A DNA stretch of 64,000 nt from an uncultured Schlesneria sp. (GTDB lineage Bacteria > Planctomycetota > Planctomycetia > Planctomycetales > Planctomycetaceae), in assembly GCA_903840265.1 (NCBI GenBank), contig CAIMFH010000190.1:1-64000 (forward strand), read 5' to 3'. The position numbers were made by a program, and so were the translations under genes. Shown piece by piece: positions 4,236 through 59,272 of the stretch; the stretch's first letter is position 1; each line of letters starts with the position of its first letter. The notes under the pieces were generated by a model. It saw only the letters and a program-made list of their open reading frames with translations, ran no database searches and was not told the DNA's origin.

Positions 4236-5252
4236 CTAGTATGGTGGTAGCGATGTTGTTTTGGATGGGGATAGCGATGTTGGCCCAGATTCGGGCGTCA
4301 GTGTCGCTGCTCCGGCAGAGACCTCATCGAGTTGATTCAGCAGATCAACGATCTCTTCATGGAGGCGTTGTGTCTGGCGGATGATGAGTGAGGTATTCGT
4401 CGAGCGGAGATTCCCCTCACGCGACAGGTGGCGTCCACCGCCGCCGCCGCCGGAACCAGGCGCCCCACCTGGTGCCGGCATGCCGGGGGCCGCGTTCCGA
4501 CGTTGTTCGGGCGGGGCGATTGGAGTCCAGGTATCCGGGGCGATCGTGCTGCGAATGATCTGGTCCAGTTCAGTCGGCGTCACGCCCTTGAGACGGGAGA
4601 CATCATAGACGCGGGTTTCAAAATGTTCGTTCGCCTTTGCCGCTAACGTGACGACAAGAACCTCATTCTTGATAATGTAGTCCAAGGCAAGCGGTTCCAG
4701 AATCATGGCGAGCGCACTTTTCAGTGTGGTGCCCGTCATCACCAATGTGACCTGCTGATCAGTCGCGACACCTTCATTCTGCAGAGCCTGCTTGTCCAGC
4801 CAGATTTCGATATGGTGCAGGTCTTCCAGATAGTTGAGCGCTTCCTCCAGTGGGTTGTCGGTGAAACTCACTTCTGTCGGGTTTTCCAAAGCGGCTTCGA
4901 TTTTCTTCACCAACGGGCTGCGCAGTTTGCGATCCCAATTCTTGGATGGTGCTTTCGGCAGAATCGAGGGAGCGACAGCGGCCGCCCCGTCTGCTCCAGC
5001 AGGCTGCTGCCCTTGTACCGGAGGCGCACCGATCACAATCGCCCCGTCCGCAATTGGCCGTGGTTTCACTGGCGGCTTGCCCGTGATCCCTCTTTCAGTA
5101 ACTTCATTCTGGTTGCCCGCCAGCACCGGGACAAAGTCGCCTTGATCATCTCCTTGTTGTGGATCGCCAACCGCGTAGGAAGCGCTAACACCTGCGACAG
5201 CCAGCCCCACAGTTGCAACTATTGCCAGGCAAATTTTTGTCAGCGTCGTCAT
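4236..5252 (-). CDS. Secreted STN/secretin-like domain protein
   Basis: A 338-residue product with a clean signal peptide (MTTLTKICLAIVATVGLAVAG...). After a Pro/Ala-rich linker, residues of about 125-225 form a planctomycete STN-like domain: VSFTDNPLEEALNYLEDL, then LVMTGTTLKSALAMILEPL and YIIKNEVLVVT, the beta-alpha-beta pattern of secretin/TonB short N-terminal domains. Near the C-terminus is a glycine-rich tract (GGAPGSGGGGGG), then a helix and a Ser/Thr-rich tail. An AAGGA-type ribosome site precedes the ATG. It could bind a partner in the periplasm or scaffold, but there is no secretin pore domain, so it is not a full secretin. Partner unknown. Confidence 0.72.
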   Translation of the reverse strand: MTTLTKICLAIVATVGLAVAGVSASYAVGDPQQGDDQGDFVPVLAGNQNEVTERGITGKPPVKPRPIADGAIVIGAPPVQGQQPAGADGAAAVAPSILPKAPSKNWDRKLRSPLVKKIEAALENPTEVSFTDNPLEEALNYLEDLHHIEIWLDKQALQNEGVATDQQVTLVMTGTTLKSALAMILEPLALDYIIKNEVLVVTLAAKANEHFETRVYDVSRLKGVTPTELDQIIRSTIAPDTWTPIAPPEQRRNAAPGMPAPGGAPGSGGGGGGRHLSREGNLRSTNTSLIIRQTQRLHEEIVDLLNQLDEVSAGAATLTPESGPTSLSPSKTTSLPPY

Positions 5253-36820: not shown

Positions 36821-39580
36821 TCATCGCCGCCTCACTGGCCACCACAGGTTGAAGTCGATTCTTCTGAGAGCAACGTCGAGAATGAACAGGATCAAAGCGG
36901 CGGTCGCCAAGTAAGGCCACAGGGGCGTCGTGCGCTGGACTGTGCGTGCCACCGAAGCGGCCTCGCGGGCCGAAGTGTTTTTTGAAGCTGTCGAGGACGC
37001 GGGCGCGAACAGGTCTTCGGGAAGCGGGTTAAAGCGTCCGGCCGTCGAATCTGCGAGAGACTTCAGCAGATCGTTGTTCGTAGGATGCAGCCGCAGTTCG
37101 TCTGGATAACCAACGATCAAGCCGCGTGTTTGCTGATGCAGTAAAGTGCCGCCCGCGGTCTTCTGAGTCAGATTGAGGTGATAGGCACCCGACGCTGGCG
37201 TGTCGAATTCGGCGACGTAACGTCCGGGGGCCGTTTGTTTCAGTTCGATTTTCCGTTGACCGAGTTGTGGATCGATAATCGTCGCCTCGGTCGTGGCTTG
37301 ATTCAGAAACTTTCCGGCCGGGTCGATGGCATCCATCGTGACGGTCGCTTTGCGACGATCTTGTTTCACATCGACGATGACTCCTTTCACATCGTTCTTA
37401 CGCATCGACTGCCGGATTACTTGTGCCCAGAACTTGCTGTAACCGGGCCACGTCAACCATTCGGCTCCCCAGCGGCTCTTGGCGTCTGACGTGAAAGCGA
37501 CTGTTGTTCCCAAGCCGTACCGCCACCAGGCCAACAGGGGATCACCTGCCTCAGTTGCCAGGATCAGTTCGCAAGTTGCCTTGGGGCGAGTGACCACATA
37601 GCCGAGCAGAAACGGGGCTGTTTCGAAATCGATATCGGCGAGTACTGGAGTTGGCCGCACGACTTGAGGCACGAATGGCTGTTCATTGATCGCGGACTTG
37701 CTGGCCGTCATGGTCTCTTTGGCGAAGATCTGGGGCAGAGAACTGGGATCGAGTGCTTCGAAGTAACGCCCCTGCCCGATCTTGGCGATTTCCTCCAGCA
37801 GCTTGGAATCACAACCTTCACCAACAGCCACGGTCGAACAGGTGATTCGAGCCGACGCCATGCTTTGCGCAATCCCTTCGAAGTGGCCGGGCGAGGAAAC
37901 TCCGTCCGTCAGCATGATGACATGCTTCAGCTTGGCGGTCGTTCCGACGAGCGTGTTGTAGGCCTCTTCCATTGCCGGGGCCATGGTCGTGCCGCCTCCG
38001 GCTTCGACGCGGCTGATATCGTCGATGATTCGAGCTTTGTTGGCTGCCGACTGCATGTCGCTGACCCAGTAAAAATTACCGTCGAACGCGATCACGCCCA
38101 ATTGATCACGCGGGCCAAGCAATTCGGCGGCACTCTTCGCGGCCTCTTTGGCCATCTCAATCTTCTCGCCACCCATCGATCCCGATTTGTCGATGACCAG
38201 CACCATTCCCAACGATGGCTTCTCTTTTTCTTTTTCGAAGTCGGATCGTACCGGCAGAATTTCTTCGAGGACGGTTTTGTAATAGCCCCCTAACCCGAAC
38301 GATTGATCGCCACCCAGCATCATGAAGCCGCCGCCCAGGTCCTGAACATAAGTGCGGGCCAGTTCCATCTGACGTTGCGACAAGCTGGTGGCCGGAACAT
38401 TAGAGAGGGCTAGCAACTCGTAGTTCTGCAAATCAGCCAGCGTGTCGGGCATCCCTTCAATTGGCCGCACATCCACTTCGATCTCTTCCTGCTGCAACGC
38501 CCAGACAAGTTGTTGAGCAAGCTTGGGATCGCTTTCAATCAGCAGTACGCGGGGTTTACCCGTCGTGAAGACCAGCCCCGATTCCGTGTTGTTGTCGAGC
38601 AGCGTGTCGGTCTTCAATCCGCCGATTTTCACCGTGTATTGAGCAAGTCGCTCGCCCGTGATCGACTGCTGAAATCGAAAGCGGTTCTCGCCTGATTTCA
38701 ACTTACGATTCTCGCTGTGCACCTTGTGGGCTCCGCGAAACACTTCCACCAAGCCTTCGTCTTCGTGATTCGAATTGATGACCACTTCGACATAGAACGG
38801 TTCCCCTTCGCGGACCTGTGCGGGGACTTCGACAGCCGCGACTTGCACTTCGGCATCGTCGCGAACTTTGAGCGGAACGGTGTCGATCGGAATCAACGTG
38901 GAGGACTTTGCGGCCTTCTCTCCCGCACGGGCCAACACGGACTTCGCAACGGATGCAGTTCCCAGTGCGGCTTGAAGTGCATCGCCGATTGTCTGGTTTC
39001 CATCTGTCATGATGACGATGCGCGGAACGTAGTCGGGTGGCATGGCCCCGGCTGCCGAGCGAATTGCAGCCGAGAGGTCCGTCGCATTGCGATCCAATTC
39101 AACTCCCAATGAGTTGGGTGCTGTTGACTCCGCCGCGCTGATTGGCGTTGGTAGTGCAAGCTTGGGACGTTCTTGCGAGAGTGATCCCGTCTGAGCGGCA
39201 AAAGGGAGGAACATCACCTTGTGAGTGCCACCCTGCCCTTCGGCGAAGGCTTTATCCAAATACTCATCGACTTGAGACTTTCGATCGGCGTCGGCTTTCT
39301 CGTTCGCGGTGGGATCCACTTCTTCCTCGGCAACGCTCAGACTTTGATCGATCGCGACGATGACAAATTGCTGAGTTGTCGGCCGCAGCAGCGTCATTCC
39401 GCTGAGCGCCAATGCCAGCAGCGAGACGATCACGCAGCGGGTCAGCAGCGACACCAGCAACTGACGAGGCGGGAAGTCAGACAGCGACCGGCGGAAGTAC
39501 CATACCAACAGCGGTACGACCATCAGCAGCGTGGCAATCCACCACGGATGGATCAATTCCAGTGATAACGATTCGAGCAT
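36821..39580 (-). CDS. Membrane VWA protein with a GATase-like domain
   Basis: 919 residues from the ATG at MLESLSLELI; the track's TTG start is eight codons upstream. Two N-terminal membrane helices (ATLLMVVPLLVWYF; CVIVSLLALALSGMTLL) precede a first VWA-like segment (VIVAIDQSLSVAE). Later come a class-I glutamine-amidotransferase-like block (DLGGGFMMLGGDQSFGLGGY) and a full VWA domain with MIDAS DKSGS (about residue 460), then a membrane helix near the C-terminus (YLATAALILFILDVAL). This layout is common in planctomycete MoxR/VWA groups. The class-I glutaminase Cys seems absent (GGDQSFG replaces the G-C-x-G elbow), so the domain is probably structural. Confidence 0.85.
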   Translation of the reverse strand: MLESLSLELIHPWWIATLLMVVPLLVWYFRRSLSDFPPRQLLVSLLTRCVIVSLLALALSGMTLLRPTTQQFVIVAIDQSLSVAEEEVDPTANEKADADRKSQVDEYLDKAFAEGQGGTHKVMFLPFAAQTGSLSQERPKLALPTPISAAESTAPNSLGVELDRNATDLSAAIRSAAGAMPPDYVPRIVIMTDGNQTIGDALQAALGTASVAKSVLARAGEKAAKSSTLIPIDTVPLKVRDDAEVQVAAVEVPAQVREGEPFYVEVVINSNHEDEGLVEVFRGAHKVHSENRKLKSGENRFRFQQSITGERLAQYTVKIGGLKTDTLLDNNTESGLVFTTGKPRVLLIESDPKLAQQLVWALQQEEIEVDVRPIEGMPDTLADLQNYELLALSNVPATSLSQRQMELARTYVQDLGGGFMMLGGDQSFGLGGYYKTVLEEILPVRSDFEKEKEKPSLGMVLVIDKSGSMGGEKIEMAKEAAKSAAELLGPRDQLGVIAFDGNFYWVSDMQSAANKARIIDDISRVEAGGGTTMAPAMEEAYNTLVGTTAKLKHVIMLTDGVSSPGHFEGIAQSMASARITCSTVAVGEGCDSKLLEEIAKIGQGRYFEALDPSSLPQIFAKETMTASKSAINEQPFVPQVVRPTPVLADIDFETAPFLLGYVVTRPKATCELILATEAGDPLLAWWRYGLGTTVAFTSDAKSRWGAEWLTWPGYSKFWAQVIRQSMRKNDVKGVIVDVKQDRRKATVTMDAIDPAGKFLNQATTEATIIDPQLGQRKIELKQTAPGRYVAEFDTPASGAYHLNLTQKTAGGTLLHQQTRGLIVGYPDELRLHPTNNDLLKSLADSTAGRFNPLPEDLFAPASSTASKNTSAREAASVARTVQRTTPLWPYLATAALILFILDVALRRIDFNLWWPVRRR

Positions 39581-39616
39581 AAAAACGTCTCGTGTCAGGG
39601 ACAATTCCCGTGAGCG

Positions 39617-41623
39617 CTAACTGATAACTCGTCGCTGGTACATCACCCATTCGAGCGTCGTCAAAACCAATCCCGTCAGCAGTAACCAGAACCAGACAGG
39701 TCGCGAACCGAGGCCCGCCAGGACAGGCGAGGTCGTGACGGTATTCGCAAGGAGTTCTTCAGGCGGGCGAATATCTGACTCGGTGGCGTTTGCGAGATTG
39801 CAGGCAATCTCCAAAAGGGGCGATTCGTCTGCCTGTGTTTTGTCACTTATCTTTGGTGCGGTGGCCTTACCAGAATCTGCCAATCCCGGATCTTCAATAA
39901 TGCTCCAGACACCGCAATGGTCGAGGGGGCCGATCGTCATCCGTTCGATTGCTGGCAGCGGCTTGAGTTCGCCAGCGGGACTCTTCAACAGTAGCGATGC
40001 GCTTTTGGCGGGACGAGCAAAATCGCTGCTGGAAATCGTCGCCAATGATCCCGCGGCTAGCGATTCTCGCAAATCCTGTTTGTTTCCAGCGAACCAGTGC
40101 AGCGCGTTGGCCACGGTGATCGGGAACGCCGTTCGAAGCGGCAGATCTCCCTTATCGAGGTTCACCGTCAGCACCAGCACGCGACCTTCGGGACGATTGA
40201 CTGCGAAGAACAGAGGCTCCTTCGTCACCGCTTCAGCCAAGATCAGCGTCTGCTCAGGAAGGATTGGGGTCAATGCTCGCGCTTCGGGCATCAAGACATT
40301 GTCCATGCGGACGTGCGACATCAGCGGGCTGTCCTTGTCCTGCTTTGTCACGATCGGATTGGCGATCTGCTCACCAATGGCGAACAAATCCGTGGCGTTG
40401 GCGGGATCGATCACGAATACTTGGCCTGCAGGAAGCTTCTCCGGAGCCACACGGTGATAGACCACAACGGTGCCAGCAGGAACTGTGGCGGGAGCTTCAG
40501 CAACCACGGTCAGCTTTACGAGCGGATTGACTTCGAAGACTTTTTGCAGAAACAGATTGCCTGACGTGACGAGCAACACGGGTTGAATTTCACGTCGAGG
40601 CAACACAGCAGATGCCGTGTTGTCGGCAGCCAAGGCATCGTCATGCTTCAATGTTGCCAGCAGACGGCCCCCCGAAGCGGATGTCTTTTCGAAGACCTGA
40701 CTCCACTTGCCGCCGGCGTCCAACTTCAAGGGAACGACGTCGATCGGTTCATCGTTCAAGTCAACTTCGAACCGACATTCGACCGGTTGATCGGAGGCGT
40801 TGGTGACCTCCGCGAGGATTTCATAACCTAGCGGATCAACCAGGCTGCGACGAACCTGGAATTGAGTGATCCCCAAATTGGCGGCTCGAGTTCCGATGAT
40901 CTGCAGCTTGACCGGAGCTTGGGCGGTGGAGTTAGTTGTTGGAGACGTCGCCAGTGTGTCAGTTGTGCCAGGGGGCTCATGCCCCCCGCTCGGAGGAGCA
41001 AGAACGGAACTCAACTCTTCCACGCCGCTGAATCGACCGTCGGAGAAAACAACCACTTCCTGCTGCTTGCCGTCCTGCCGTTCACCCAGCAATCGGCGAG
41101 CCAGTGCCACAGCATCAGCAACCTGAGATGGCCCATCAGTCGTTGTCAGAGATTGAACGGCACTGCTGACCGTCTTCTGGCGAGACGTGAATCCAACAAT
41201 CACTTGAGGCTGTATTCCTGCAGCGACAAGAGCGAACTCATCGCGATGTCGCATCCCAGCGATCCATTGTTCCGCCTGCCGTTTGGCCTCAGCGAGACGA
41301 GTCGGTTTGACATCCGTTGCGTTCATACTCGCCGAGTTATCGACGACAATGACGATGCGCCGAGCCGAACGGGCTTCCCAGAAGAAGTAGGGATCGGCGA
41401 CCGCAAATGCCAACAGAGCCAACATGGCCAGTTGCAACAACAGCGAAACCAAATGCCGCAACCGCTGCCAGATCGAACGCGGGTTCTGCTCTTCGAGCAC
41501 CTGCGTCCAGAACATGACGGTCGACACCGGAAGGCGCCGTAATCGGATCTTCAAGATGTAGAAGATGACGATCGGCACACCAAGCAGCAGCCACAACAAT
41601 GAACCAGGAGATTCAAAAAACAT
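39617..41623 (-). CDS. BatA-like membrane VWA protein
   Basis: 668 residues. Begins MFFESPGSLLWLLLGVPIVIFYILK, a first membrane helix, then a second (LLLQLAMLALLAFAVADPYFF) and a VWA domain with MIDAS DNSASMNA near residue 96. It carries the BatA N-terminal pattern (L-x-x-P-x-x-I/L-Y-x-L-x-x-R). The C-terminus is a further membrane helix (FWLLLTGLVLTTLEWVMY). It lies 36 nt upstream of the 919-residue VWA protein, in the same orientation. BatA-type VWA proteins work with MoxR AAA+ ATPases, as encoded two genes upstream. The biochemical role in Planctomycetes is not known. Confidence 0.87.
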   Translation of the reverse strand: MFFESPGSLLWLLLGVPIVIFYILKIRLRRLPVSTVMFWTQVLEEQNPRSIWQRLRHLVSLLLQLAMLALLAFAVADPYFFWEARSARRIVIVVDNSASMNATDVKPTRLAEAKRQAEQWIAGMRHRDEFALVAAGIQPQVIVGFTSRQKTVSSAVQSLTTTDGPSQVADAVALARRLLGERQDGKQQEVVVFSDGRFSGVEELSSVLAPPSGGHEPPGTTDTLATSPTTNSTAQAPVKLQIIGTRAANLGITQFQVRRSLVDPLGYEILAEVTNASDQPVECRFEVDLNDEPIDVVPLKLDAGGKWSQVFEKTSASGGRLLATLKHDDALAADNTASAVLPRREIQPVLLVTSGNLFLQKVFEVNPLVKLTVVAEAPATVPAGTVVVYHRVAPEKLPAGQVFVIDPANATDLFAIGEQIANPIVTKQDKDSPLMSHVRMDNVLMPEARALTPILPEQTLILAEAVTKEPLFFAVNRPEGRVLVLTVNLDKGDLPLRTAFPITVANALHWFAGNKQDLRESLAAGSLATISSSDFARPAKSASLLLKSPAGELKPLPAIERMTIGPLDHCGVWSIIEDPGLADSGKATAPKISDKTQADESPLLEIACNLANATESDIRPPEELLANTVTTSPVLAGLGSRPVWFWLLLTGLVLTTLEWVMYQRRVIS

Positions 41624-41632
41624 AGTGATTGA

Positions 41633-41691
41633 GATGAAAGATGAAAGTGACGAGTAACGAGGTAAAACAAAAAGATGAAAGTGACGAGTGA
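41633..41691 (+). repeat. GATGAAAGTGACGAG repeats, left side of the S23 gene
   Basis: GAGATGAAAGATGAAAGTGACGAGTAACGAGG and, after AAAACAAA, AAGATGAAAGTGACGAGTGAAGAAC. The same phrase occurs inverted at 42107-42137 on the other side of the S23 gene. Short direct copies of GATGAAAGTGACGAG lie within each side. Confidence 0.75.
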
Positions 41692-41708
41692 AGAACGCGC
41701 AACAGTTG

Positions 41709-42086
41709 TCAGGTTTTACGTCTGGCGTTGACGGCAGTCCTTAGGCCACCAATGATCCGACTGATTTCGTCGGCAAGCGTCATTAGTCGTTGAAACTCCT
41801 CCGATTCGAGATAGCCCACATCGAGCGCGACATACAGCTGAGACCGGACTTCAGCGTTGGAACCTTTGGCAATACTCAAGAATCGATGGAAGTCACCCGG
41901 ATTGCTTCGTTCGTGGCCCTCTGCAATGTTTGACATTACCGACACCGCTGCCCTGCGGATCTGGTCCCGAAGTCCAAAATCACGCGCGAACGATCCGACG
42001 TTAGATGCAATATAGATCTCTCGTGTAAGAACACGCGTTTTCTGCCAAGCAATCAGGTCTTCAAAACGGGACGCTCTCTCACTCAC
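41709..42086 (-). CDS. Four-helix-bundle (S23 / intervening-sequence type) protein
   Basis: 125 residues, with the family signature [37 protein letters not shown] and [12 protein letters not shown]. This family was first found in 23S rRNA intervening sequences and is related in fold to Avd, the accessory protein of diversity-generating retroelements. No reverse transcriptase or variable repeat is near. It lies within the MoxR/DUF58/VWA gene run and is flanked by inverted copies of a short repeat, which suggests it arrived as a small cassette. Function not known. Confidence 0.85.
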
Positions 42087-42106
42087 TGCTTCTTAACCTT
42101 CTTCCC

Positions 42107-42137
42107 TCGTTACTTTCATCTCGTCACTTTCATCTTG
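42107..42137 (-). repeat. GATGAAAGTGACGAG repeats, right side of the S23 gene (inverted)
   Basis: On the minus strand this reads AAGATGAAAGTGACGAGATGAAAGTAACGAGG, the inverted form of 41633-41691. Together the two sides bracket the S23 gene. Confidence 0.75.
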
Positions 42138-42141
42138 CCTC

Positions 42142-43053
42142 TCAACTCACTGCGCCTGCGGTTCGCATCATTCGTAAGATCAGATCTTCAAAGTCAACTT
42201 CGTTAGTGGTCTGGGTACATCCCAAGCCGTATTTCTTGCCGTACCCCGCGACGCCCGCTTGGAAGCTATCGAAGACCTTGCGGTACTCTCGCAGGGCTCG
42301 TTCGGTGATTGTCACTTTGCGTACCGAGTCGGTTTCTGCGTCGACCAGTTCGATCTCACCAAGCATTTGGGGCCGCGCTTCAGCGGGATCGTGGATCTGA
42401 ACCAGATGCGGTTCGTAGGTGCGATGCCTGAGGAGATCGAGACCGCGCTCGTAGCCGTTCGGATCAAACAGATCACTGATGACAACGGCCAGGCCGCGAC
42501 GTTGTGGCCGGAGGACAAAGCTGTTGACGATGCGACCGAGATTCGTGTCGGTTCCCTGCGGTTCGAGTTTCTCTAGAAAGCGAAGCAGGGACAGGATGCG
42601 GTCTTTGCCGCGAGTCAGCGGGAAATCGGCGATGATTTCCTGCGAGTAGGCGATGATGCCGATGCGATCGAGATTTGACAGGGCGATATAAGCCAAGGCC
42701 GCAGTCACTTGGCGAGCCAGATCAAACTTGGGTGGATTGCCAAACCCCATACTGCGCGAGCAATCGATCAAAAAGTAAACGTGCAAGTCTTCTTCTTCCT
42801 GAAATCGCTTCAGCAGCAGATCGCCATGTCGAGCGTACACGTTCCAGTCCAGATGCCGGAAATCGTCGCCGGGGGCGTATTCGCGGTGGTCGGCGAATTC
42901 GATGCCGCCGCCCATCTGCTTCGTCCGCCGTTGAGCCAGAATGGATCCGCGGAAAACCCGACGCGATATCAGGGACAGGTATTCGAGCTTCTTCAGGAAA
43001 TCGCCGTCGAACAGCATGCTTCTGTGACCTCGCGACGAGTAGTCAGGATTCAC
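42142..43053 (-). CDS. DUF58 protein (VWA-like)
   Basis: 303 residues. The DUF58 core is clear: GIEFADHREYAPGDDFRHLD followed by WNVYARHGDLLLKRF, and then a MIDAS-like DCSRS at residues 97-101. The start is the GTG at 43053; an internal ATG at 43017 (MLFDGD) is an alternative. It is nine nt past MoxR, so probably translated from one message. DUF58 proteins are usual partners of MoxR ATPases. No membrane segment is visible. Confidence 0.9.
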   Translation of the reverse strand: MNPDYSSRGHRSMLFDGDFLKKLEYLSLISRRVFRGSILAQRRTKQMGGGIEFADHREYAPGDDFRHLDWNVYARHGDLLLKRFQEEEDLHVYFLIDCSRSMGFGNPPKFDLARQVTAALAYIALSNLDRIGIIAYSQEIIADFPLTRGKDRILSLLRFLEKLEPQGTDTNLGRIVNSFVLRPQRRGLAVVISDLFDPNGYERGLDLLRHRTYEPHLVQIHDPAEARPQMLGEIELVDAETDSVRKVTITERALREYRKVFDSFQAGVAGYGKKYGLGCTQTTNEVDFEDLILRMMRTAGAVS

Positions 43054-43062
43054 GACTTCTCA

Positions 43063-44055
43063 CTAGGCCTGTACGGCCTTCAAAATCCCCTCAACAACGG
43101 TATCGGTTTGGATGCCTTCGGCCTGACCCTCGAAGTTCAGGATGATGCGATGTCGCAGCACTCCTAACGCGACCGCCTTGAGGTCGTCTCGGGCGACATG
43201 ATAGCGTCCGTCGAGGATCGCCAGAATTTTTGCGGCGAGGATCATCGCTTGAGCACCGCGAGGGCTGCTGCCATATCTCACATATTTCCGCGTGATCTCG
43301 GGAGCCGTCGCATGATCGGGGTGAGTCGCCAGAACGAGTGAGATGCCATAGCGACGGACGTCGTCCGCAATGGGAATCTGTCGGGCCAGTTGCGACATTG
43401 CCAAGGCACGCTCACCTGCCAAGACGGGTTGAGCTCGTGGCGTCTTGGCTTCGGTGGTTCGGTCAAGGATCAGTTCCAACTGTTCGAGCGTCGGGAATTT
43501 GACGATCAGCTTATTGAAGAACCGGTCTAGCTGGGCTTCTGGCAGCGGATAGGTACCTTCCATTTCCAGCGGGTTCTGCGTCGCCAGCACGAAGAATGGT
43601 TCAGGCAGCTTGAACGTCTGGCCGGCGATGGTGACCGTGTGTTCCTGCATGGCTTCCAACAAAGCCGACTGCGTTTTTGGTGTCGCGCGATTGATTTCGT
43701 CGGCCAGCAGAATGTTGGTGAAGATCGGGCCCTGCTGGAATTCGAATTTCTTCTGCTTGTCGGGCGTCTCCAACACGACGTTCGTGCCCAGCAAATCGGC
43801 GGGCATCAGGTCGGGGGTGAATTGCACGCGATTGAACTTCAGGTGCAGGGCATCGGCCAATGTCCGGACCAGCATCGTCTTGCCCAGGCCCGGAACGCCT
43901 TCCAACAACACATGCCCGCCGCCGATCAAGCAGGTCAGCGTCGCCTGTACGATGTCGTCGTTGCCGACGATCACCTTGCCAATTTCGTCGCGAAGAGTTT
44001 TGAAATCGGCCCGGAACTGATCGCACAGTTGCTGCGTCTCGGCTGTCGTCGACAT
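43063..44055 (-). CDS. MoxR-family AAA+ ATPase
   Basis: 330 residues. Walker A GVPGLGKT at 53-60, Walker B with LLADEINRATPKTQSALLEAM, and a sensor region (FFVLATQNPLEMEGTYPLPE) typical of MoxR. It is the promoter-proximal gene of the minus-strand run MoxR, DUF58, (S23), BatA-like, VWA/GATase-like. MoxR ATPases act as chaperone-like remodelers, often for metal insertion or VWA partner activation. The start ATG is well placed, with the giant gene divergent 326 nt away. Confidence 0.93.
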   Translation of the reverse strand: MSTTAETQQLCDQFRADFKTLRDEIGKVIVGNDDIVQATLTCLIGGGHVLLEGVPGLGKTMLVRTLADALHLKFNRVQFTPDLMPADLLGTNVVLETPDKQKKFEFQQGPIFTNILLADEINRATPKTQSALLEAMQEHTVTIAGQTFKLPEPFFVLATQNPLEMEGTYPLPEAQLDRFFNKLIVKFPTLEQLELILDRTTEAKTPRAQPVLAGERALAMSQLARQIPIADDVRRYGISLVLATHPDHATAPEITRKYVRYGSSPRGAQAMILAAKILAILDGRYHVARDDLKAVALGVLRHRIILNFEGQAEGIQTDTVVEGILKAVQA

Positions 44056-44381: not shown

Positions 44382-47300
44382 ATGGTGTTCCTTCCCACTC
44401 GACCGCGAACGTGGATGGTTCTGGCTTGGACGTTCAGTCTGGCGTATTCGTTCCCGGTGATCGGTCAAGAAGCCGACCCCGAGGAAGTACAGGCGGTGAC
44501 GACGAACTCGAAGTTCGTGACGGTCCTGGAAAAGAATCCTCGCCGCGGCACGGCCCTCGACAAGGTCTATGGCTTCCATGTCGAACGCGGGACGCTGGAC
44601 GGTTTTATTAAGACTTATCGCGAAAAAGCAGCGGCAGCCCAGGGAGCCGCCGCCTCGTCGTCATGGATGATCGTTGGCTTGATGGAATCGCTGCGCGGTC
44701 AAGATGCCGCATCGGTCGAAGCGTTCAGCAAGGCCGAGGAACTGGACGACAAGAACTATCTTTCGCCGTACTACCTGGGACAAGCATTGGTTCTAGTCGG
44801 GCAACCCGACAAAGCCGCCGAGGCACTCGAACGAGCCATTCAGCGTAAACCGGCACCGGCCGATCAACTGGAAGTGTTCCAAGCGCTTGGCCGGGTTTAC
44901 CAGCGAGCCCAAAAAAATGACAAAGCGCTCGAAGTCTGGAATCGGTTGGAAAAGCAATTCCCCAATGACGCACGTGTGCAGGAGCAGATCGCCACGACGT
45001 TGTTGGAAGAGAACGAATTCACCGCTGCGTTGCCACGGTTTGAGAATCTGGCCAAGACATCCAAAGATAAATATCGTCAGTCACAGTTCCAGATGGAAGC
45101 GTCTGAGATCAAAGTTCGCTTGGGCAAGTCGGACGAAGCGATCAAGGAATTCGAGAAGCTCCTTGGACAATTGAATCCCGACAACTGGCTGTTCCGCGAA
45201 GTTCGGCGGCGAATCGAAAACGTCTACCTGCGGACCGACGACCAGGCGGGGTTGATCGGTTACTACGAAGCGTGGACAAAAAAGAATCCTGAAGATTTGG
45301 AAGCGATCTCGCGATTGGCTCGACTGCTGGCGGGTCTGGGTCGCGGTGCGGAAGCCCAGTCCTGGCTCGAAAAGGGATTGAAGTCGGCTCCTTCACGAAA
45401 GGAACTGCGAAACGCCTTGATCGCGCAATTGGTGTACGAACAGAAGTTTCCCGAAGCGATCGTGCAGTATGAGCAACTCGATAAGTACGAACCAAATAAT
45501 CCTGACACGCTGCGGGACTGGGGCCGCCTGATTCTGAAAGATACGAAACGCGACGAGGCAACTCGAAAGAAAGATGCCGGGACCGTCTGGCGTCGACTGA
45601 CAACCGCCAAGCCCAAAGATCCGCTGATCGCTTCGCAAGTCGCCGAACTATTTCGTCATGCCGAAATGATCGACGACGCATTGGCCCTTTATCGCAAGTC
45701 GATTGAGTTGTCCCCGGAATCGGCCCAGTACAAGGAATATTTGGGCGAGTATTTTCACTCGCTGCAGCGCAAAGACGAAGCGATGGCAACTTGGCGGCAG
45801 ATGGCCGAGGGGAAGGCCAAGACGGCCGCGAATCTGGCGCGTCTCGCGGAAGTTCTCGCGGGATTTGGCTACCTCGGTGAAGCGGTCGACGCGAACGCCG
45901 AAGCCTGCAAGCTGGACCCCAAGGAGATCAACCTGCAGATCAAGCAAGCGGATCTGCTGTCTCAAGCGGAAAAGCATGACGAATCGCTCAAGCAATTAGC
46001 GGTCGTCCAGAAGCTGGCGGCCAATGATGAAGAGCGCGAAGCATGGCTGCAGCGCGAGTTGAAGGAACTTCAAACGCTGGAACAACTGAAGGATCACATC
46101 GCGGCGGCCCGGATGGAGCTCGAGGCCCTCCCTGCCCCGGCATCTGACAAGGAAAAAGCGGCACGGTCAGAGAAGTGGTTCTGGCTGGCTCGGGCCCATG
46201 AAGCCGAACGTCAGTTGAAAGAGGCCGCGGAAGCGGTTTCGAAAGCGGCTGATTTGGCGCCGCAATCAGTTCCAATCCTGATGTCAACGGCTCGGATTCT
46301 TGAAGCACAACAGAATCTGCTGGCGGCCGTTGAGACTAACACCAAGCTCGCCGCGATCGATCGTCGCTACCGGACGGAGTACTTGAAGAAGGTGGCTCAA
46401 CTGGAAGTCCAGTTGGGTCGACGCGAGAAAGCGATCCAGGCGGGTCGTGATGTTCTGGCCGCTGCGCCCGGCAATCCCGAACTGTATGAATTCTTCTCGC
46501 AGCTTTGTTTCCAGCTGGGAGAAAACGAGGAAGGGCTGCAGGCCTTGCGGCGGTCTGTTCGCGTGAACCCAACCGAGCCCAAGGGCTTGCTGCTGCTGGC
46601 ATCGGCGCTGGGTGAACAGTTTCGCACAGGCGAATCGATCGAACTGTATTGGCGAGCCTTCGACAAAGCCAACAACTTGGAAGACCGCCTGTCGGTCGTG
46701 CCGCGGCTGACGGAGTTGTACCTGCAAACAAATCAATTCGACCGATTGCTGGAACGATTGGAGAATCGCCGTCGCGAGCCGAACCAACAGCGGGAAATGA
46801 CCATTTGTATCGCGCAGGCTTACCAATCAGCGGGTGACGACGGAAACGCGCGACAGGAGTTGGAAAAGCTGCTGACCGAAGACACGCGAGACACGCAGTT
46901 GTTGCAGCAACTGGTGAAGCTCTGCGAACAGGACGGCGATCTGGAAGCGGCGATCCGCTTCCAGCATCAGATGACCAAGATCGCTCCCGGCAAGGAAGGG
47001 ACGATGCGTCTGGCCCAGTTGCTGATGAAATCGGGTGATTCCGAAGAGGCGACGGCCTTGCTGACGCGAGCAACCGCCGACGAGAAGGATCCCGAACAAC
47101 TGATTAAGTCGGTCGACTCGCTGTTGACTCAGAAGAACTACGATCAGGTGCTGGGCATTCTCGAGCGGCTGGTTCGCGACCAACCCAAGAACTGGGAACT
47201 GCTGTATCGCCAGGGGGTCGCCCTCGCGTCGACGAAACCCGAAGAAGCAACACGTCGATTTGAAACCATTCTGGCGATGAACATCAATGATGATGAACAG

Positions 47301-50300
47301 ACGCTGATGGCAAAAAACCAAGCGAAAAAGAATACAGGGCGGCAGCGGAGTCCCGCGATCCAATTTCGCCAGATGAACCCGTTCATGCAACGCCTGCAGT
47401 ACACGCATACAATCCGCCAAGCCGTTGGGCTGGACCAGAACAACTACTACGGCGGCGGCTATCCACAACAGCAACAGTTCTGGGCTCCACACGATTTCGG
47501 CACGGCACGGCTGGCCAGTTTGGCCTGGTTGCAACTGTTCGCGAAAAATGCTGGCAAAGAAGAGGATTTCTTGAAGCAACGCCGGACGGCCGCGGAGAAA
47601 TCGACGGATCGTCGTCCCACCATCGATGCGTACCACCTGGCAGCATTGAGGAACGACAGCAAAGAGCAGTATGAGATTCTGAAGAAGCTGTCGCAGCAAC
47701 CGGGGGCCGACATCGGGATCAAGTCGACGTATCTGACTTTGCTTGGTTCGCGTGGCGGTCCTCAGGCGACCGCCGTCGTGAACGAGGAAACTGGTGAACG
47801 CGAAATAAAACTCGACCCACTGGACAAGGAAGAACTCGAACATGTCCTGGCGATCTACAAAGAGCTTGACGATGCCACATCAATGATGAACTACGGCCAG
47901 ACTTTCCTGGAGGTGGTCGCCGCCGAGCTCAAACGAGCCGGTCACACCGAAGATGCCGACCAGCTGTTTCAACAGACGTTGCAGGCAGCGAAGTCCCCCA
48001 TGCAGATTGCGTCGGTCATGGCGGGAACGATTCAACGCGGCGACTATGTGACGACGATGAAGCTGCTGGATCGGCTGGCCGAGATGAAATCGGACACTTC
48101 TGCGAACGCGACTGCTGGCGGCTACAACAATTATTCTCAGTACGTTTCCACGCCGCAGTATCAAGCGCAGATCCTGGCGCAATTGATGGCCAAACGCGCC
48201 CAGAAGAAGGAGCTCGGCGATGTCCTGGGACTGTGGGATCGATATCTGGCAATCGCGGTCACCAGACACGACGCCGACAAGAAGCTCACAGCCGCCACAC
48301 GAAAACGAAATGCCAACAATAATCCGTACGGCTCTCCAGGCTACTTTTATATCTGGCGAGGCAACAACCAGCAGCACGAGCAAGTCGACTTCCCCACTCC
48401 GAATGCCATCTATGATCATTCGTCCCTGCAGATGTTGCGACAAACATTCGCGGTCTACAAAGACGTCGATTCCACAAAAACTCTGATCGATCATTTCCAA
48501 CAGAAATTAAAAGACGATAAGACCCCGGCGCAGCAACAGATTTTCTGGAAGCTGGGACTCGGCTATCTTTTCTGGTGGAACGAGGACAGGGATGATTCTC
48601 TGACCGTGTTGACGGAAGCCACCAATTCGCTGGCCGGCGATGAAGAGATGGCGTTCGAGCTGGCTCGGCTGCATGAGAAGCGAGGAGATCCCCAGGAGGC
48701 ATTGGCAATCATCGAGGCGCTTCCGGCCGCTGATCAGCAGACGATGCAAAAGCGTGAGATTGCGGCCCTGCGACTGTCGGTCAATAGCGGAAACATCGAT
48801 CGCGCGCGGACCGCTGCCGAGCGGCTGTTCGGACTGCGCCTCGATTCCAATCTGCAGATCCAACTCTCCAGACAAATGCATCAACTCGGCATGCACGAAC
48901 AGGCGGAAGCAGTGCTGTCGCGCGCGGGACGCCAGGCAGGCAACAAGACCGATGTCTTGATGAACTTGATGCAGCAGTATCAATCGCAAGGTAAGAACGA
49001 CGTTGCGACTCAGATCGCTCATCAATTGCTGCGACGATCTGCTGGCAGCGCGGCGCAGTATGCATTGAATAGTGGACGGCGATCGGGACGCGACGACAGC
49101 GGAGCACGCCAGCAAGCGCTGCAGGTCTTGAAGCGCTCAGGCAAGCTGCCAGAAATGACCAAGAAGGTCGAAGATCAACTGGCGCACTCACCGAAGTCTC
49201 AAAAGCTGATCGAGACGCTGATTGAATACTACACGGCCGCAGACAATTCCAAGAAGGTGGCCGAATTGTCGGCGAAATACGCAGAAACGAAGGGAGACGA
49301 TCCGCAATTCCGCTATCAGTTGGCGATGCAACTGGTTCGAGACGGCAAGCACAAGGAGGCACTGGAACACTTTAAGGTCTCTCTCAAGAAGGATCCTCGG
49401 CTGCTGCGCAATGGATACTGGGAGATTCAGAATGCGTTTGAGAGCGCCGATAAACTGGATGACCTGGCGACCCTCTACGAAGAGATCGACCTGAAGTCGT
49501 TCCGACAAAGCCCCTACGAGCTGACCAACCTGATCAGCAATATGTCGCAGCGCGACAAGACAAAGGATCGATCGATCTCGCTGTTCAAGAAAGCCTGGGC
49601 GGATCTGCCGGACCAACGGGCGCAATTACTATCCAATCTGAACAGTGATGTGTTCTGGAATATGCCGGAGATCTACGACTACGCACGACAGGGCATTATT
49701 CCGACAGAGACATCACTCGCTCAAACAGGAGCTTGGACAGGGTTCGGCAATATCCAAAGTTGGAACAACGAAGGGAAGATGACCACGCTGCTAAGCCGTA
49801 TCCTGGCCATGGCGGCGCAGTCGACAAAACTGGACGCCTTAGCAACCGAGGTCGCAGAGGCTCGCGGCAAGCTCAAGAACTGGCAAGCGGGTGAACCGCT
49901 GCTCGCCATGATCGATTTGCGTCGAGGTCGAGTCGACGAAGGCAAAGCGGTTTTTGAAAAGTTGTTGCCGACCATGAAGGGGGTCCAGCAGGTCGGCTAC
50001 TACACGCATTGGGAGATCGCCCAGGAACTGATGGCCCATGAATCCTGTATCGACCTGGCTATTCTCTATCTTGAAGCCGCGACCAAAGAATCAGAGTTGA
50101 TGAACGGCAACGAGTTCACTTACACGCCTGGAAAAGCACTCGTGAACTTGTACCGCCAACGAGGACGAAAAGACGATGCGCGACGCGTCATCCTGAAGGC
50201 GATCAATGACAAGACATCTCGGAACTATGGAAACAGAGAATACGAAGTCTATCAAAAGCTTCGAAATACGATTGCGCTCGGTAAAGAAGTACGCACGCTG

Positions 50301-53300
50301 GGCTACCCTGTCGATGCGATCCGCCTGTATCAGGAAGCACTGTCAAGAGGCGAAGACCTGGTCACCGCGCAGCGCTATGGCGGCGACAACATCAAGAACG
50401 AACTGCAAAATGGCTTCAAGGCGGCGCTGGAAGAATTGCGACCGGAAACGCTACCAGAATTGCTGACGGGATCATTGGGTGCCGAGGGTAAAGCGGCAGC
50501 TCCGGTCGATCTCGTGCTGTTAGTGGAATCTCGCGATCTCGACAAAGCCAGCATGACGAGCGCCCTCGGTCGGCTACTGGCCGATCTTGCCAAGAAGCCG
50601 GGCATGCTGCCTAAGACACGGGACGCGATCGCCGATGTCGTTTCGAAGCGTCCCGAAGATCTGTCGGTGCTCATCCTGGATGTCCAACTGGCGATTTCCA
50701 CTGGTGATACGAACACTACCGACAAAGTTCTCAAGCAATTGACAGAGGTTCTCGCCCGCACACCTCTTGAGCCACAACCAGCCAAGGGGGGATTCACCGC
50801 GGATCAGAAAGCAGCGGCATTGCGGGAAACGGCACTGTGGCTGCTGGCTCGTGATTGCCTCAAGCTGGAAAAGTTGCGAGACAGCGGTGAAATTCTGGCG
50901 GCACGGGCCTTGGAGGCTTCGCGCCGGAACTCCGATAACGGATACACGATGGCAATCCTGCGGGAATGGGGTCAGATCGCGCTGGACGCAGGCGACAAAG
51001 AGACCGCGGAAAAGCGCTGGTCCGAGATGCTCGATCTGGTCATTCCAAGAACACCAACCAAAGGCAAGGATAAAGAGGAAAAGAAGACGAGCTGGCGTGA
51101 GCGGCCCGTTCCTCAGGGCGGAAAGGAGCCGCTGCATCTGACCCGGTGGGAGCAGATGCTGGCTCCGGTGATTGCTGCGCAATTGGCCACTCCAACACTT
51201 TCGATCCGGTCAGCCAACGCAACGCCCTCAACGGGCGGGACAAAAGGCAACGTTGTCACGTTGGTCCAATTCGAACAGGCCGCTCAGATCGCGACACTCG
51301 CTGCGGAGCACGGCTTGGCCGACCTCTCCGTCAAAGCAATCTCGCAAGCGTTACACGCGGGACCACCTATTGAGGTGATGCAGGCCGATCAATCGAACTC
51401 TTCTGGCTTTCCAACGATCGCGCAGCCGCAAGCCAGTGAACAATCGCCTGTGCTGCAGAAAGTGGAACAGCGTCTGACGGCCGTCGTGGCGCTTTGGCGG
51501 AAGAAAGCGGTCGACGATGTCGTCATCTATGAAGTGTTGAAGCACGCCGTGTTGCCGGAAACACGTCCGTTGGAGTTGTTTCTATATCCACGTCCGTTGG
51601 CCACCAATCCCAACCAGACGCCGCAGAGCGTCGGGTTGCTGTTGGTGCAGGCAGCCGTTCGGGCGAAAAAGGTCGACGATCTGAATGAAGCGATCGCAAC
51701 AAGATTAAAGCAACCACTGGGAGAATTGGCGGGACGAGTCCTGGCGACGCAACTGGCACTGGCAACCAACGATACGGCGGCTGTTCATCAGCAACTGGAA
51801 TTACTTAGTACACGCCTGAAGCAAGATTCATTGCAGTATTCCAGCGAACTGGCCTGTCACGTCGCTGTTCCTGCGTTGACCATGCCCGACCTTCCGGTGG
51901 TGGCCATCCCGCTGTTGGAACGTGCCATCGATCACTTCACGCAGAATATGCAACAGGGGCGAGCATCCTCTCAAGAGGAACCGATGCGGACATACCACTT
52001 CGCACTCGCGCGATTGCATTTCCGAGCCGGGAACAACGCCGCAGGCAAGAAGCATCTCGAAGACTACCTCGCGTTCCTGGTTCCGATGTATCGCAACTAC
52101 AGCGGGGACTATGGACAGCAACGCCGCCGCCAGGAACTGATGAAGATCGCGGCAGAATATGCTCGTGCCGGACTGCAGGCCGATTCCCTCGATTGCCTCG
52201 GTCAATATGCCGACCTGCCCGTGTCGCGGAACTACGGTCAGGACAGCCCCGGGCGAGCCGGGGCCTTGATCTTGAGTGGACTCGCCCAGATCCCCGCTGC
52301 CGAGCAGTACGAACTTCTCAAACAGTGGACGCTGCCGACCGCTGATCGGAAATCGTTACGCGTGATCACCTGTCTGCTCCCCACAGATCACGCTCCTGCC
52401 GAATTCGATACATTACGCGGCACAGCCCCTCGGGGAACTCGGCAAACACAATTATTCAGCACTGCCGACCTGCTGACACTAGCCGCAAACGAAGTCGGTA
52501 AGCTGGATGAACTTCGACAACTCGTCCTGCCACATGTCGAACAGAATCTGGAGAATGCGCGGTTCGTATTGTTGCTGATTGAGATCGGCAAAGGGGACGA
52601 ATCTGCGTCGGTTGCCTTCAACGCCTACCTCGATGAGCGTCGCAAGTCGCTTCCCGGTCAGGGGGACTACCAGAAGCGTCCTCAAGTCATGGATGCCATC
52701 CTGGCCCAGGCAGCGATGCGCGATCCGAGTTTGGCCGAGGCTGGCCGCCAACTGGAGTTGAACTTTTTCCTGCATGGATCGCGCGTGCAGGAACATCTGC
52801 TCATGGGACTGGCGCGCCACGATTACAACGCCAGCCTGATTGGGGAAGAGTTGGCCAGTCGATTGGATCACCAACCGACAAATACAGGACTGAAGCACTG
52901 GACCGCATCATCCACCGTCCCCGCACGCACTGAGGCAGCCGGAGCTGTGCCGATGTGGTGGATCGCGCAGGAAGGTTTGCTGACCCATATCTGCGGCCCC
53001 GATCAAAGCCACCTGTATTTCAAATACCCGCTGGCTGGGACATTTGAACTATCGTGTGAAGGCTGGTTTGGGGGCTGGGCCGAGGCAAATAGTGGCTTCG
53101 GCGGCTTGGTCTTTCAAGGACTCAACGGTGGATCGGATACCTCTATTTTCGCGATCGGTAATCGCGGAGACGCGGTACGCAAACCAGATCCACCGGAGAA
53201 GAGCGACCACTACAATCGGATCAAGCTGTCGGTGATGCCCGACAAGATTCAGTACACCGTGAATGGGCATCTGATTCACACGGAACCGTACTCGACGACC

Positions 53301-56300
53301 ACGTCGCCATGGTTCTTCCTGCAGTGCGATCGAGTCTGGCAAACGTGCTTCCGCAACATTCAGATCACAGGCCATCCTGAAGTCCCCGCAGAGGTGCGGC
53401 TGTCTCAAGGAGAATCCTTGTTGGGATGGAGTTCCGACTTCTACGGTGAATCACAACCACCGCGGACCCCGCCGACCAATGCTGCCAGCGACGAACGGGA
53501 GTACGACTGGTGGTCTACAGCAGGAGTCATTCATGGCCGTTTGATGCCGTCCAATGGCTATGGCAAAGCTCCTGTACAGCAAAGTCGATTGTACTACGGA
53601 CGGCCTCTGGTCGACGGTGATCAGCTGCAATACGAGTTCTGGTATGAACCCGGCGCCGGCGGCACTCACGTTCATCCAGCCTTCGATCGACTGGCAATGC
53701 TGCTGGATCCTGATGGTCTGAAATTGCATTGGATGACCGATGGATCAAATCCAGAAGATGCCTATGGCGGACTAGCCGCCGATCACACACTGGTGGAGGC
53801 GTCGATCCGACGTGATCCTGTGAAGCTGAAAGACAATGCGTGGAATCAAACTGTGATTTCCATGAAAGGTAATATCGTCACCATTCAGGTGAATGGTTCG
53901 GTCGTGTGCGAACGTCCACTGGAGGACGAAAACAGCCGACAGTTCGGTTTTTATCACGACAAGCATGCTACAGCTGTCAAGGTGCGAAATGTCACGCTGA
54001 CGGGCGATTGGCCGAAGGCCCTGACCGATGCGACGCTCGCAAATCTGCTGGCACCGTCGCTTGATCGAAACGATGCTGATCGTCGGACGCTAAGCCATGC
54101 GATAGAGGAGAAGTTCCGAGCCACCGATCTGGAGGGAATCCTGCTTCAAACGCGATCAATGCCACTCGCGGATCGTTATGAGTCGCTCAAGGATTGGGTG
54201 CTGCCAAATGTCGATCATGATGCGTTCCGGCTTTATGCGGACAACGCACCGGCCGATCCGCTGCCGGTCTCGCCAATCGTCTTGGCACCTGCCAAGCGAT
54301 CCACGAGCAAAACAGTCCAAAATAGCGGCGGCCAAACGACGCGAGTTCGTAGTGGTGGTGACCTGATTGGGCCGGCGTTGGATCTTGTCGCAGTGGCAAA
54401 GGAGTTGGGCAAACTCGACGAGCTGAGGAAACTTGTTCAAAAAGTTCCTCCCTCGTCGGAACAGATCGCGCGGTCGCGACTGGCGATGCTGGTTCTGCTG
54501 GCAATCGCCGTAGATGACCTGGAGCAGGCCGCAGCGGCGTTGAAAGAATTGACACCCGCTCGCGATAAGGGATTGTCTGATAGCTTGTCCATGACCGAAC
54601 GGTGGCCGGAACTTGTGGCCGCGTGGGAAGCCTCATACGTTCCCGAACTGTGTACTGCGGCGAATCTGTTGCTGGATCTGGTACTCGATTCCACCAATCG
54701 CAAAGGAGTTGGAACGTCCTGGGATATCAAAGTCCGTTCCGCCAAGCAGTATGCACGCGCGATGCAGGACAAAAACGAAGTTCTGCCAACGGCATCAGGA
54801 CGTTCGCCCAAAGGTCAATGGGCTCAGCATACGTTGACCAGAGCCTCCAACCGCGCGGCAGGGATGGTACCCCGATGGCAGTTCAAAGGAAGCGAATCGC
54901 TGCACCTTGGGGGTGAAGGTAACGATTTGATTTACTTCCAGTCGCCGTTGCGAGGTTCCTTTACGGTCGAGGGCGAGTTGTCGACATATGGCTGGCGCGA
55001 AGCCCGCATCATGTATGCCGCGCAGTGGGCTGGAATCCAGTACACGAACGAAGCCGCGGACTTGGGGAATCTGTACAGCCATTGGGTCGGTCCCAAGTTC
55101 GCCAAGAAGCTCGATCCGGTCGGCGAATGGTGTTATGCAAAATTAGTCGTCACGCCCGAAAAGGCCAGCTATTTCGTCAATGAACAATTGATCCACGAGA
55201 ACTTACTGGGCGACAACTGTGACCCTTGGTTCGCCATCTACAGTTTTCAGCAATTCGCGGCCTCGACGCGGTTCTTGCGGATTACGGGAGAGCCCGACAT
55301 TCCTGCGGAATTGCTGCTATCCAAGCGTGAAGATCTGCAGGGTTGGTGGGCCGACATGTATGGCGATGTGATGTCCGGCGATACTCCTGTGTGGAAAAAA
55401 GACGGCGAAGAGATCGTCGGAAACAAGATCGTCAATCAGGAAGGCCGCAGTCGCGAAAGCCTGCTGCAGTATCATCGCCCGATGCTGGAAGATGGAGAGA
55501 TTTCCTACGACTTCTTCTACGTTCCCAAGCAAACCCACATCCATCCGACTCTTGGTCGCATGGTCATGATGCTGGCCGAAGACGGCGTGACAATCCACTG
55601 GCTGACTGACGCACAATTCGAACGCGGCGGACTGGCCCCCGACAATTTGTTCATCGAACAGGAGCGCCGTCGAGGAACTGCAATGCCTTTGAAAGCGGGC
55701 GATTGGAACAAGATCAACCTGAAGCTGAAGGGCGACGTCGTGACCCTGACTTTAAACGGAGACACGATTTACGAACGACCGGTCGACTCAAACAACTTGC
55801 GCAACTTTGGCTTCTTCCGTTATGCGTGCGACACCGATGCCCGGATCAAGAACGTTGTCTATCGAGGCAACTGGCCCAAAACGCTCCCTTCGCTGAAAGA
55901 CCAGGAGTTGGCGGGCGACGATCCCCAGTTGGTCAATTTCAAAGACGGCGAATTGCCGGCAACATTCTCGTGGAATTTCCAAGGGAAGCGACCGGCCCAT
56001 TTGGATTTGATGGGTATCGTCCCGACATCAAAGTTCTCGCCCGTCGAAGGTGGCCTTAAAATCGAACGCGGTCGTGGCACAGACGTGGCCGCGAGTTCGG
56101 CAGGCATTCAATGGAACAACGTTTCTGTCGGCGGCGATTTTGAAGTGACTGTCGACTATCGCAATTTCCAATCCTCGACGAAGGCCCCCGGGCATACGGT
56201 TCCGCGAATCGAGTTGCTGTTGGGATTGGGAGGCCGATTCGGTCACGAATCGCAGGCCCTTTCCGTTGCTCATCGACGAAATTCCGAGAGCAAGATGGAG

Positions 56301-59137: not shown

Positions 59138-59147
59138 AACAAATACA

Positions 59148-59249
59148 GAGTTGACCACGAATAACACGAATCTCCACGAATCAAAATCAAGTCCTCTAAC
59201 AAGACCGCTGTTCCTATTCGTGTCAATTCGTGAGATTCGTGGTCAACTC
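59148..59249. repeat. 15-bp inverted repeat, GAGTTGACCACGAAT
   Basis: GAGTTGACCACGAAT (59148-59162) and ATTCGTGGTCAACTC (59235-59249) pair perfectly across a 72-nt spacer that itself contains more CACGAAT/ATTCGTG phrases. It lies in the gap between the convergent dehydrogenase and beta-propeller genes. A bidirectional terminator or a dispersed repeat is likely. Confidence 0.75.
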
Positions 59250-59272
59250 TTCCCCTAAGAAATTGAACTACA

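Follow-up and report, generated by a model that had tools for sequence, protein, structure and literature searches.

A gene of the S23 family, set between two inverted arms built of 7-nt units, forms a cassette that comes and goes in the gaps between bacterial operon genes. The architecture of the locus, its generality and its presence or absence at orthologous sites establish this with high confidence. The S23 gene and its heptamer arms probably constitute one insertable unit, a selfish cassette lodged in the gaps that separate co-directional operon genes. Such a mobile cassette is apparently widespread and undescribed. Our literature search, which had partial coverage and reached few subscription journals, found no link of S23 or GxxExxY genes with repeat arms. 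An earlier note on this DNA had proposed a non-autonomous mobile unit. The small mobile cassette is upheld by arms in many phyla, by presence and absence, and by swapped armed inserts, while the term non-autonomous goes further than these results.

The S23 cassette of the DUF58-BatA gap

The window is the whole stretch of 64,000 nucleotides that was analysed, and the genome holding it is designated G000; its gene content points to Planctomycetes. G011 and G012 are relatives of G000 and separate species. The features of the window discussed here are as follows.

36821..39604, minus strand: VWA/glutamine-amidotransferase-like gene, end of the MoxR-to-VWA run
39617..41623, minus strand: BatA-type VWA protein, operon gene downstream of S23 (PF07584 2.9e-12, PF13519 1.8e-21)
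41629..41695, minus strand: 3' arm (downstream on the S23 strand), complementary 7-nt units with two CTCGTCACTTTCATCTT copies
41709..42086, minus strand: S23 / 23S_rRNA_IVP four-helix-bundle gene, 125 aa, the cassette cargo (PF05635, TIGR02436)
42099..42145, minus strand: 5' arm (upstream on the S23 strand), 7-nt units AAGATGA/AAGTGAC/GAGATGA/AAGTAAC
42142..43053, minus strand: DUF58/VWA, operon gene upstream of S23 (PF01882 1.3e-45)
43063..44055, minus strand: MoxR AAA ATPase of the DUF58-S23-BatA operon (PF07726 1.1e-64)
59147..59250, no strand assigned: gene-less hairpin of 9-nt units CACGAATAA/CACGAATCT/CCACGAAT

The operon reads MoxR, DUF58, S23, BatA-type VWA and VWA/glutamine-amidotransferase-like gene on the minus strand. 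The earlier note had placed an S23 gene between inverted repeats, with a MoxR/DUF58/VWA run in the same direction on either side. Profile matches bear out the run, and GATGAAAGTGACGAG is indeed present in both orientations: on the plus strand at 41640-41654 and 41674-41688, and on the minus strand at 42106-42120 (with one mismatch) and 42120-42134. Two longer inverted pairs surround the gene, one of 26 nt (41629-41654 / 42120-42145, 92% complementary) and one of 23 nt (41673-41695 / 42099-42121, 91%). Runs of degenerate 7-nt units (AGATGAA, AGTGACG, AGTAACG) describe the arms better. The 5' arm starts at the DUF58 stop codon (42142-42144), and the last base of the 3' arm falls a few nucleotides short of the BatA start codon. 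In the predicted RNA fold of 41600-42170 (571 nt, z=-2.84) the arms pair around the S23 frame. S23 is the sole ORF between the arms, which leaves the cassette lacking the transposase or recombinase of an insertion sequence or transposon. An Rfam search at the site found no known RNA family. Elsewhere in the window, on the plus strand (44382-57950), there is an open frame of 4522 aa with TPR-like repeats, as judged by reading, followed by similar repeated domains.

The S23 protein and its relationship to Avd

The S23 assignment is secure, with 122.6 bits against PF05635 (E=1e-35, curated cut-off 33.8) and 114.4 bits against TIGR02436 (E=2.8e-33, cut-off 24). The AF2 model (pLDDT 93.7) is a four-helix bundle whose closest folds are the S23 structures 2gsc and 2rld, followed by the DGR protein Avd. 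Query TM is 0.82-0.87 against 2gsc and 0.70-0.76 against Avd, both alone and in the DGR ribonucleoprotein (4dwl, 8ub7). The relation to Avd given in the earlier note is therefore supported by fold, and homology of S23 and Avd is also stated in PMC10053308. S23 proteins are toroidal homopentamers (PMC4990558). Pairwise dN/dS lies mostly between 0.05 and 0.3 where dS could be estimated, many pairs being saturated; S23 is thus maintained and under purifying selection.

Reverse transcriptases are present in all 15 genomes of the genus, and the two of G000 are on contigs other than that of the window. The presence of such an enzyme, considered as a discriminator, is uninformative because 15/15 genomes carry one. 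One genome (G003, contig C1) has 15 reverse-transcriptase matches, eight with identical scores, against 1-4 in the rest of the genus; this set looks like a recent expansion.

Matching arms of 7-nt period around S23 genes

PF05635 genes occur in 188/298 genomes of the window's class, at 1-15 per genome, and in 0/14 control genomes. Arms were sought by comparing the upstream and downstream 250-bp flanks as inverted repeats, with a threshold score of at least 14. In the window's class, 89% of 70 S23 loci reached this score, compared with 1.5% of the 2664 control windows taken from the same loci. The score was also reached by 80% of 74 named S23 loci from Bacteroidota, Acidobacteriota, Verrucomicrobiota, Pseudomonadota, Bacillota and others, against 0.65% of 2300 control windows. 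The loci were picked by S23 score and are a non-random sample, in which matching arms flank about 84% of the pooled 144 loci, against about 1% of control windows; 10-20% of S23 loci have none. Alignments of repeats can inflate scores, a concern met by a swapped-partner control: 84% of own-partner arms score at least 14, against 2.5% of swapped pairs. The true partner was the best of 143 candidate arms in 82 cases and among the top three in 119.

The period is as characteristic as the pairing. The strongest self-match falls at a lag of 7 for 95 and 101 of 143 flanks, compared with 32/416 controls. The unit itself changes from element to element (GCAGTAG, GGTCAGG, GTTGAGA, GGATTCG, GGTTAGC, TTAGATT, among many others). 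Median values for the arms are 31 nt in length, 88% in identity and 406 nt in spacing, and the 5' arm on the sense strand is poor in C (13%) and rich in G (37%). Small neighbouring genes rarely have such flanks. Matching arms were found at only 7 of 138, and reading of the sequences showed that these seven include one S23, one S23-like four-helix, one GxxExxY and one RAYT-like gene. The S23-like gene, at 4655-5021 of locus L112 (S23 orientation), belongs to a divergent subfamily, has AAATCCG heptamer arms with a score of 37.5, and lies near an S23 cassette. S23 homologues were also found on 25 plasmids, mostly cyanobacterial. Phage were rejected as a vehicle, with 0 homologues among 50,697 phage records.

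Position and orientation of the cassettes in operons

The gene upstream of S23 is co-directional at 100 of 115 armed loci. Within the co-directional pairs of these 115 loci, S23 is in the sense orientation in 77 cases and antisense in 6, and the junctions are nearly flush: the median distance is 1 nt between the upstream stop and the beginning of the 5' arm, and 5 nt between the end of the 3' arm and the start codon that follows. The upstream stop codon lies inside the arm in 46/113 cases. The sense bias could reflect selection for S23 expression instead of insertion at the RNA level. Heptamers, whose length of 7 is not a multiple of 3, were also considered as universal translation terminators. 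Of the 5' arms, 22% contain stops in every frame, compared with 18% once the phases of the units are permuted, and a general terminator role of the arms is not supported.

Copies of the repeat in the genome and genus

The search for further copies of the repeat, proposed as a check in the earlier note, found such copies. GATGAAAGTGACGAG at no more than one mismatch has 32 matches in G000, against 0 for a reversed-pattern control. Most of these are paired inverted runs, intergenic, with a spacing of 20-70 bp and without S23. About 15 S23-less hairpins built from the window's units exist in G000. At two mismatches the counts are 73 against 10 for the control in G000, and 41 against 7 in G012; for exact copies, only these two stand out among 15 genomes of the genus. 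Next to one hairpin of G000 (L006) lies a dispersed repeat of ~180 bp, which recurs over 20 times in G012, on many contigs and with identities of 73-90%; the matches correspond to query 801-982 of the sequence around that hairpin.

BLAST identified two more S23 genes in G000. The one on contig C104 has inverted AGTACTG heptamers on either side, and the one on contig C87 has a hairpin on one side only. The unit sequence thus varies within a single genome, from GTGACGA on the window's contig (C190) to AGTACTG on C104. On C104 (L002, ~1930-2010) about nine near-perfect ACGAACG heptamers adjoin the AGTACTG heptamers by the S23 gene.

Filled, empty and swapped sites in relatives

Presence and absence at orthologous sites in close relatives, as expected of a mobile element, are seen at the window site itself. 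An empty DUF58-BatA junction had been suggested as a second check, and it exists. G012, whose DUF58 is 99% identical, has a gap of 63 bp, and G011, whose DUF58 is 92% identical, has a gap of 7 bp (TGACACTATG); both lack S23 and the repeat. Judged against the G011 sequence, no target-site duplication is evident. Two outcomes that had been set against mobility, S23 at the site in all relatives and no other copies of the repeat, both turned out to be false.

The reverse situation is found between ackA and an EutN/CcmL-like gene (names given by reading the sequence). In G012 this site is filled by S23 with AGGGCTA heptamers, and in G000 it is empty, with overlapping stop and start (GCCAAATAATG). 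In the filled allele the upstream frame enters the first units and stops at a TAA within the heptamer GGGCTAA. GACAAAG on the left and GCCAATT on the right are both similar to GCCAAAT of the empty site, a loose repeat of ~7 bp that may be a 7-bp duplication. S23 is missing from G011 at this site, where the 5' arm is new (GCGGTTA) and the 3' arm is similar to that of G012; this looks like a decayed element. G000, without arms, could represent precise loss or independent insertion in its relatives. The sole clear target duplication is the 4-bp ATGA on each side of a gene-less hairpin in the comparison of G000 with G011 (L030/L228), where ATGA is the overlapping start and stop of the empty site. 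At other orthologous sites G012 has S23-less hairpins with scrambled units, G000 and G012 differing by whole units.

Orthologous gaps were fetched for eight S23 sites, and for seven of them there was a relative in which no orthologous S23 cassette was recognised. At one (L106), G291 has S23 with GTAGTGG-type units, and G288 and G029 have S23-less hairpins of GTCCGTT units. At another (L091), G288 has S23, G230 has another S23 subfamily with its own heptamers (PF05635 1.4e-26), G029 has a GxxExxY gene (TIGR04256 4.7e-44) with CGGAGGCGCAGAGA arms, and G291 has an unrelated gene. Two sites (L076 and L070) have S23 in one genome and a GxxExxY gene, recognised by eye, with GACGCAAA or GACGCAGA arms in another; at a further site (L114) S23 is present in G186 and absent from G150. 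Overall, at least one relative has another armed insert at 6/7 S23 sites, against 8/83 (9.6%) other co-directional junctions, the former figure being a small sample of relatives that are not independent. Armed inserts with a further unit family (GGGGATAAGGGGAT / ATCCCC) and no recognised gene also occur in the same operon gaps (L241, L243, L235). With the relatives being separate species, loss and gain are not always separable, and the case for movement is a comparative one.

A parallel family with GxxExxY genes

GxxExxY genes (TIGR04256 / PDDEXK_3), which occupy the same sites as S23 cassettes, behave in a similar way. Inverted arms scoring at least 14 flank 18/24 loci (75%), against 1.6% of controls. 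The encoded protein has a nuclease-like fold unrelated to S23, and the arms consist of 8-9-nt units as opposed to the 7-nt units of S23: the lag in the 24 loci is mostly 9 or 8 and never 7. Their motif is narrow and of low diversity (CACGGAGG, CACAGAGGA, CACNGAGG, CGCAGAGA). The window's gene-less hairpin at 59147-59250 resembles GxxExxY arms, and this resemblance suggests a related kind of element outside the S23 cassette.

Comparison with known systems

The closest known system is the intervening sequence (IVS) of 23S rRNA in Coxiella, Leptospira and Brucella, in which complementary, stem-forming ends also surround an S23-family ORF (PMC4990558). Its stem has a counterpart here in the 26-nt arms, paired in the predicted fold, and the IVSs are likewise suspected selfish elements (PMC4990558). 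The insert is 428 nt in Coxiella (PMC4990558) and ~490-510 nt here. In contrast to the IVS, the cassette lies between two protein genes, DUF58 and BatA, and not in rRNA; its ends are degenerate 7-nt units, its sites are many and different, and gene-less hairpins of the same units exist. IVSs are excised from the transcript by RNase III.

REPINs, MITEs and BIMEs share with these hairpins the form of short, dispersed, extragenic inverted repeats that outnumber their protein-coding relatives (PMC3116915). The ends of REPINs and MITEs are sequence-defined by one transposase (PMC3116915), whereas only the 7-nt period and self-complementarity are constant here. Since the unit sequence differs among elements, there is no common terminal sequence to go with a single helper transposase. 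Degenerate 7-nt units are described in the P6b stem of the Nostoc trnL intron, with two complementary paired arms and gain and loss of units (PMC4476775), and in intergenic TAACTGA repeats (PMC4679880). In the parts of these two reports available to us, neither is linked to an S23 gene, unlike the arms described here, and PMC4679880 does not mention S23. The rRNA IVS, the Nostoc P6b stem and the TAACTGA repeats each show one piece of the pattern. Avd of DGRs (4DWL, 8UB7) has the same four-helix fold as S23. Unlike in a DGR, there is no template repeat, variable repeat or reverse transcriptase beside the cassette, whose neighbours are MoxR, DUF58 and VWA genes.

Interpretation and alternative explanations

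The reading of a selfish cassette is supported by the arms, their period and matching, the sense orientation, the flush junctions, presence and absence, and swapping. The one-sided hairpin on C87, the armless 10-20% of S23 loci and the lack of a catalytic enzyme in the cassette count against it. S23 may serve the element as a factor of its own for mobility or maintenance. The sense bias, the predicted fold, purifying selection and the relationship to Avd lead us to a tentative mechanism, in which the arms act as an IVS-like RNA stem, and S23 both recognises the register of 7 nt and assists in copying. The cassette would be expressed from the host operon transcript. By analogy with the 23S rRNA IVS, the arms would pair in the mRNA to form a stem with the S23 frame in its loop. 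As a result, the insert might be trimmed or tolerated, leaving the neighbours unharmed. S23, presumably a ring protein like Avd and a product of the element itself, would probably recognise the paired repeat by its 7-nt register and not by a fixed sequence. It would then promote copying or maintenance of the element, possibly through a host reverse transcriptase or repair machinery; the chemistry of movement is conjectural. Hairpins that share these units but lack S23 would derive from the cassette by movement in trans.

Movement in trans at the DNA level is an unlikely alternative that nevertheless has some evidence on its side. The arms would be hairpin ends recognised by an enzyme of host or foreign origin, such as a RAYT/IS200-like HUH enzyme that works on single-stranded hairpins, as with REPINs, and S23 would be a passenger or accessory. 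S23-less hairpins outnumber S23 cassettes in G000, as MITEs and REPINs outnumber their helpers; there is the ATGA target duplication, and the RAYT-like gene among the control genes has its own repeats. However, a sequence-specific transposase would not allow the arm sequence to vary even within G000 with only the period constant. S23 is also linked to 7-nt arms in one phylum after another, and GxxExxY to 8-9-nt arms; the encoded protein is therefore not an arbitrary passenger.

It is improbable that the repeats came first, with slippage during replication, or template switching, producing and spreading hairpins in operon gaps that tolerate them, and with S23 captured between two arrays as cargo without a role in mobility. 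Heptamer units do turn over rapidly between G000 and G012 at shared sites, and gene-less 7-nt stems are known from the Nostoc trnL intron P6b (PMC4476775). The different armed inserts found in relatives at six of the seven sites, compared with fewer than a tenth of the other junctions, also fit such an origin and mean that the sites are reused. Random capture, however, predicts many unrelated genes, and of the seven armed small neighbours three are S23, S23-like or GxxExxY; the period, moreover, follows the protein family. An ordinary, vertically inherited and immobile operon gene with regulatory hairpins would suit the purifying selection on S23 and its direction, but it is hardly tenable, being already contradicted by the absence of S23 at the same site in relatives of 99% and 92% protein identity, by its patchy occurrence in the class, and by the different inserts held by the same junctions.

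Returning to the selfish cassette, we tentatively suggest a new class of mobile cassettes in bacteria, with ends set by period and mutual complementarity and not by sequence. One family would pair S23, an Avd-like ring, with 7-nt units, and another GxxExxY, PDDEXK-like, with 8-9-nt units. In each, the encoded protein would read the period of the paired stem, and the families would compete for operon gaps.

Significance

S23 proteins, annotated as four helix bundle proteins, have been without a known function since their discovery in rRNA inserts. The pattern described here gives S23 a testable setting in many phyla, where each gene has a repeat-armed cassette to itself within an operon. It also raises the question of how arms ~400 nt apart stay matched while their sequence changes with each element. 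The pattern is relevant to annotation, as GxxExxY genes behave likewise, and it would account for many of the odd hairpins of 7-nt and 8-9-nt repeats in bacterial genomes.
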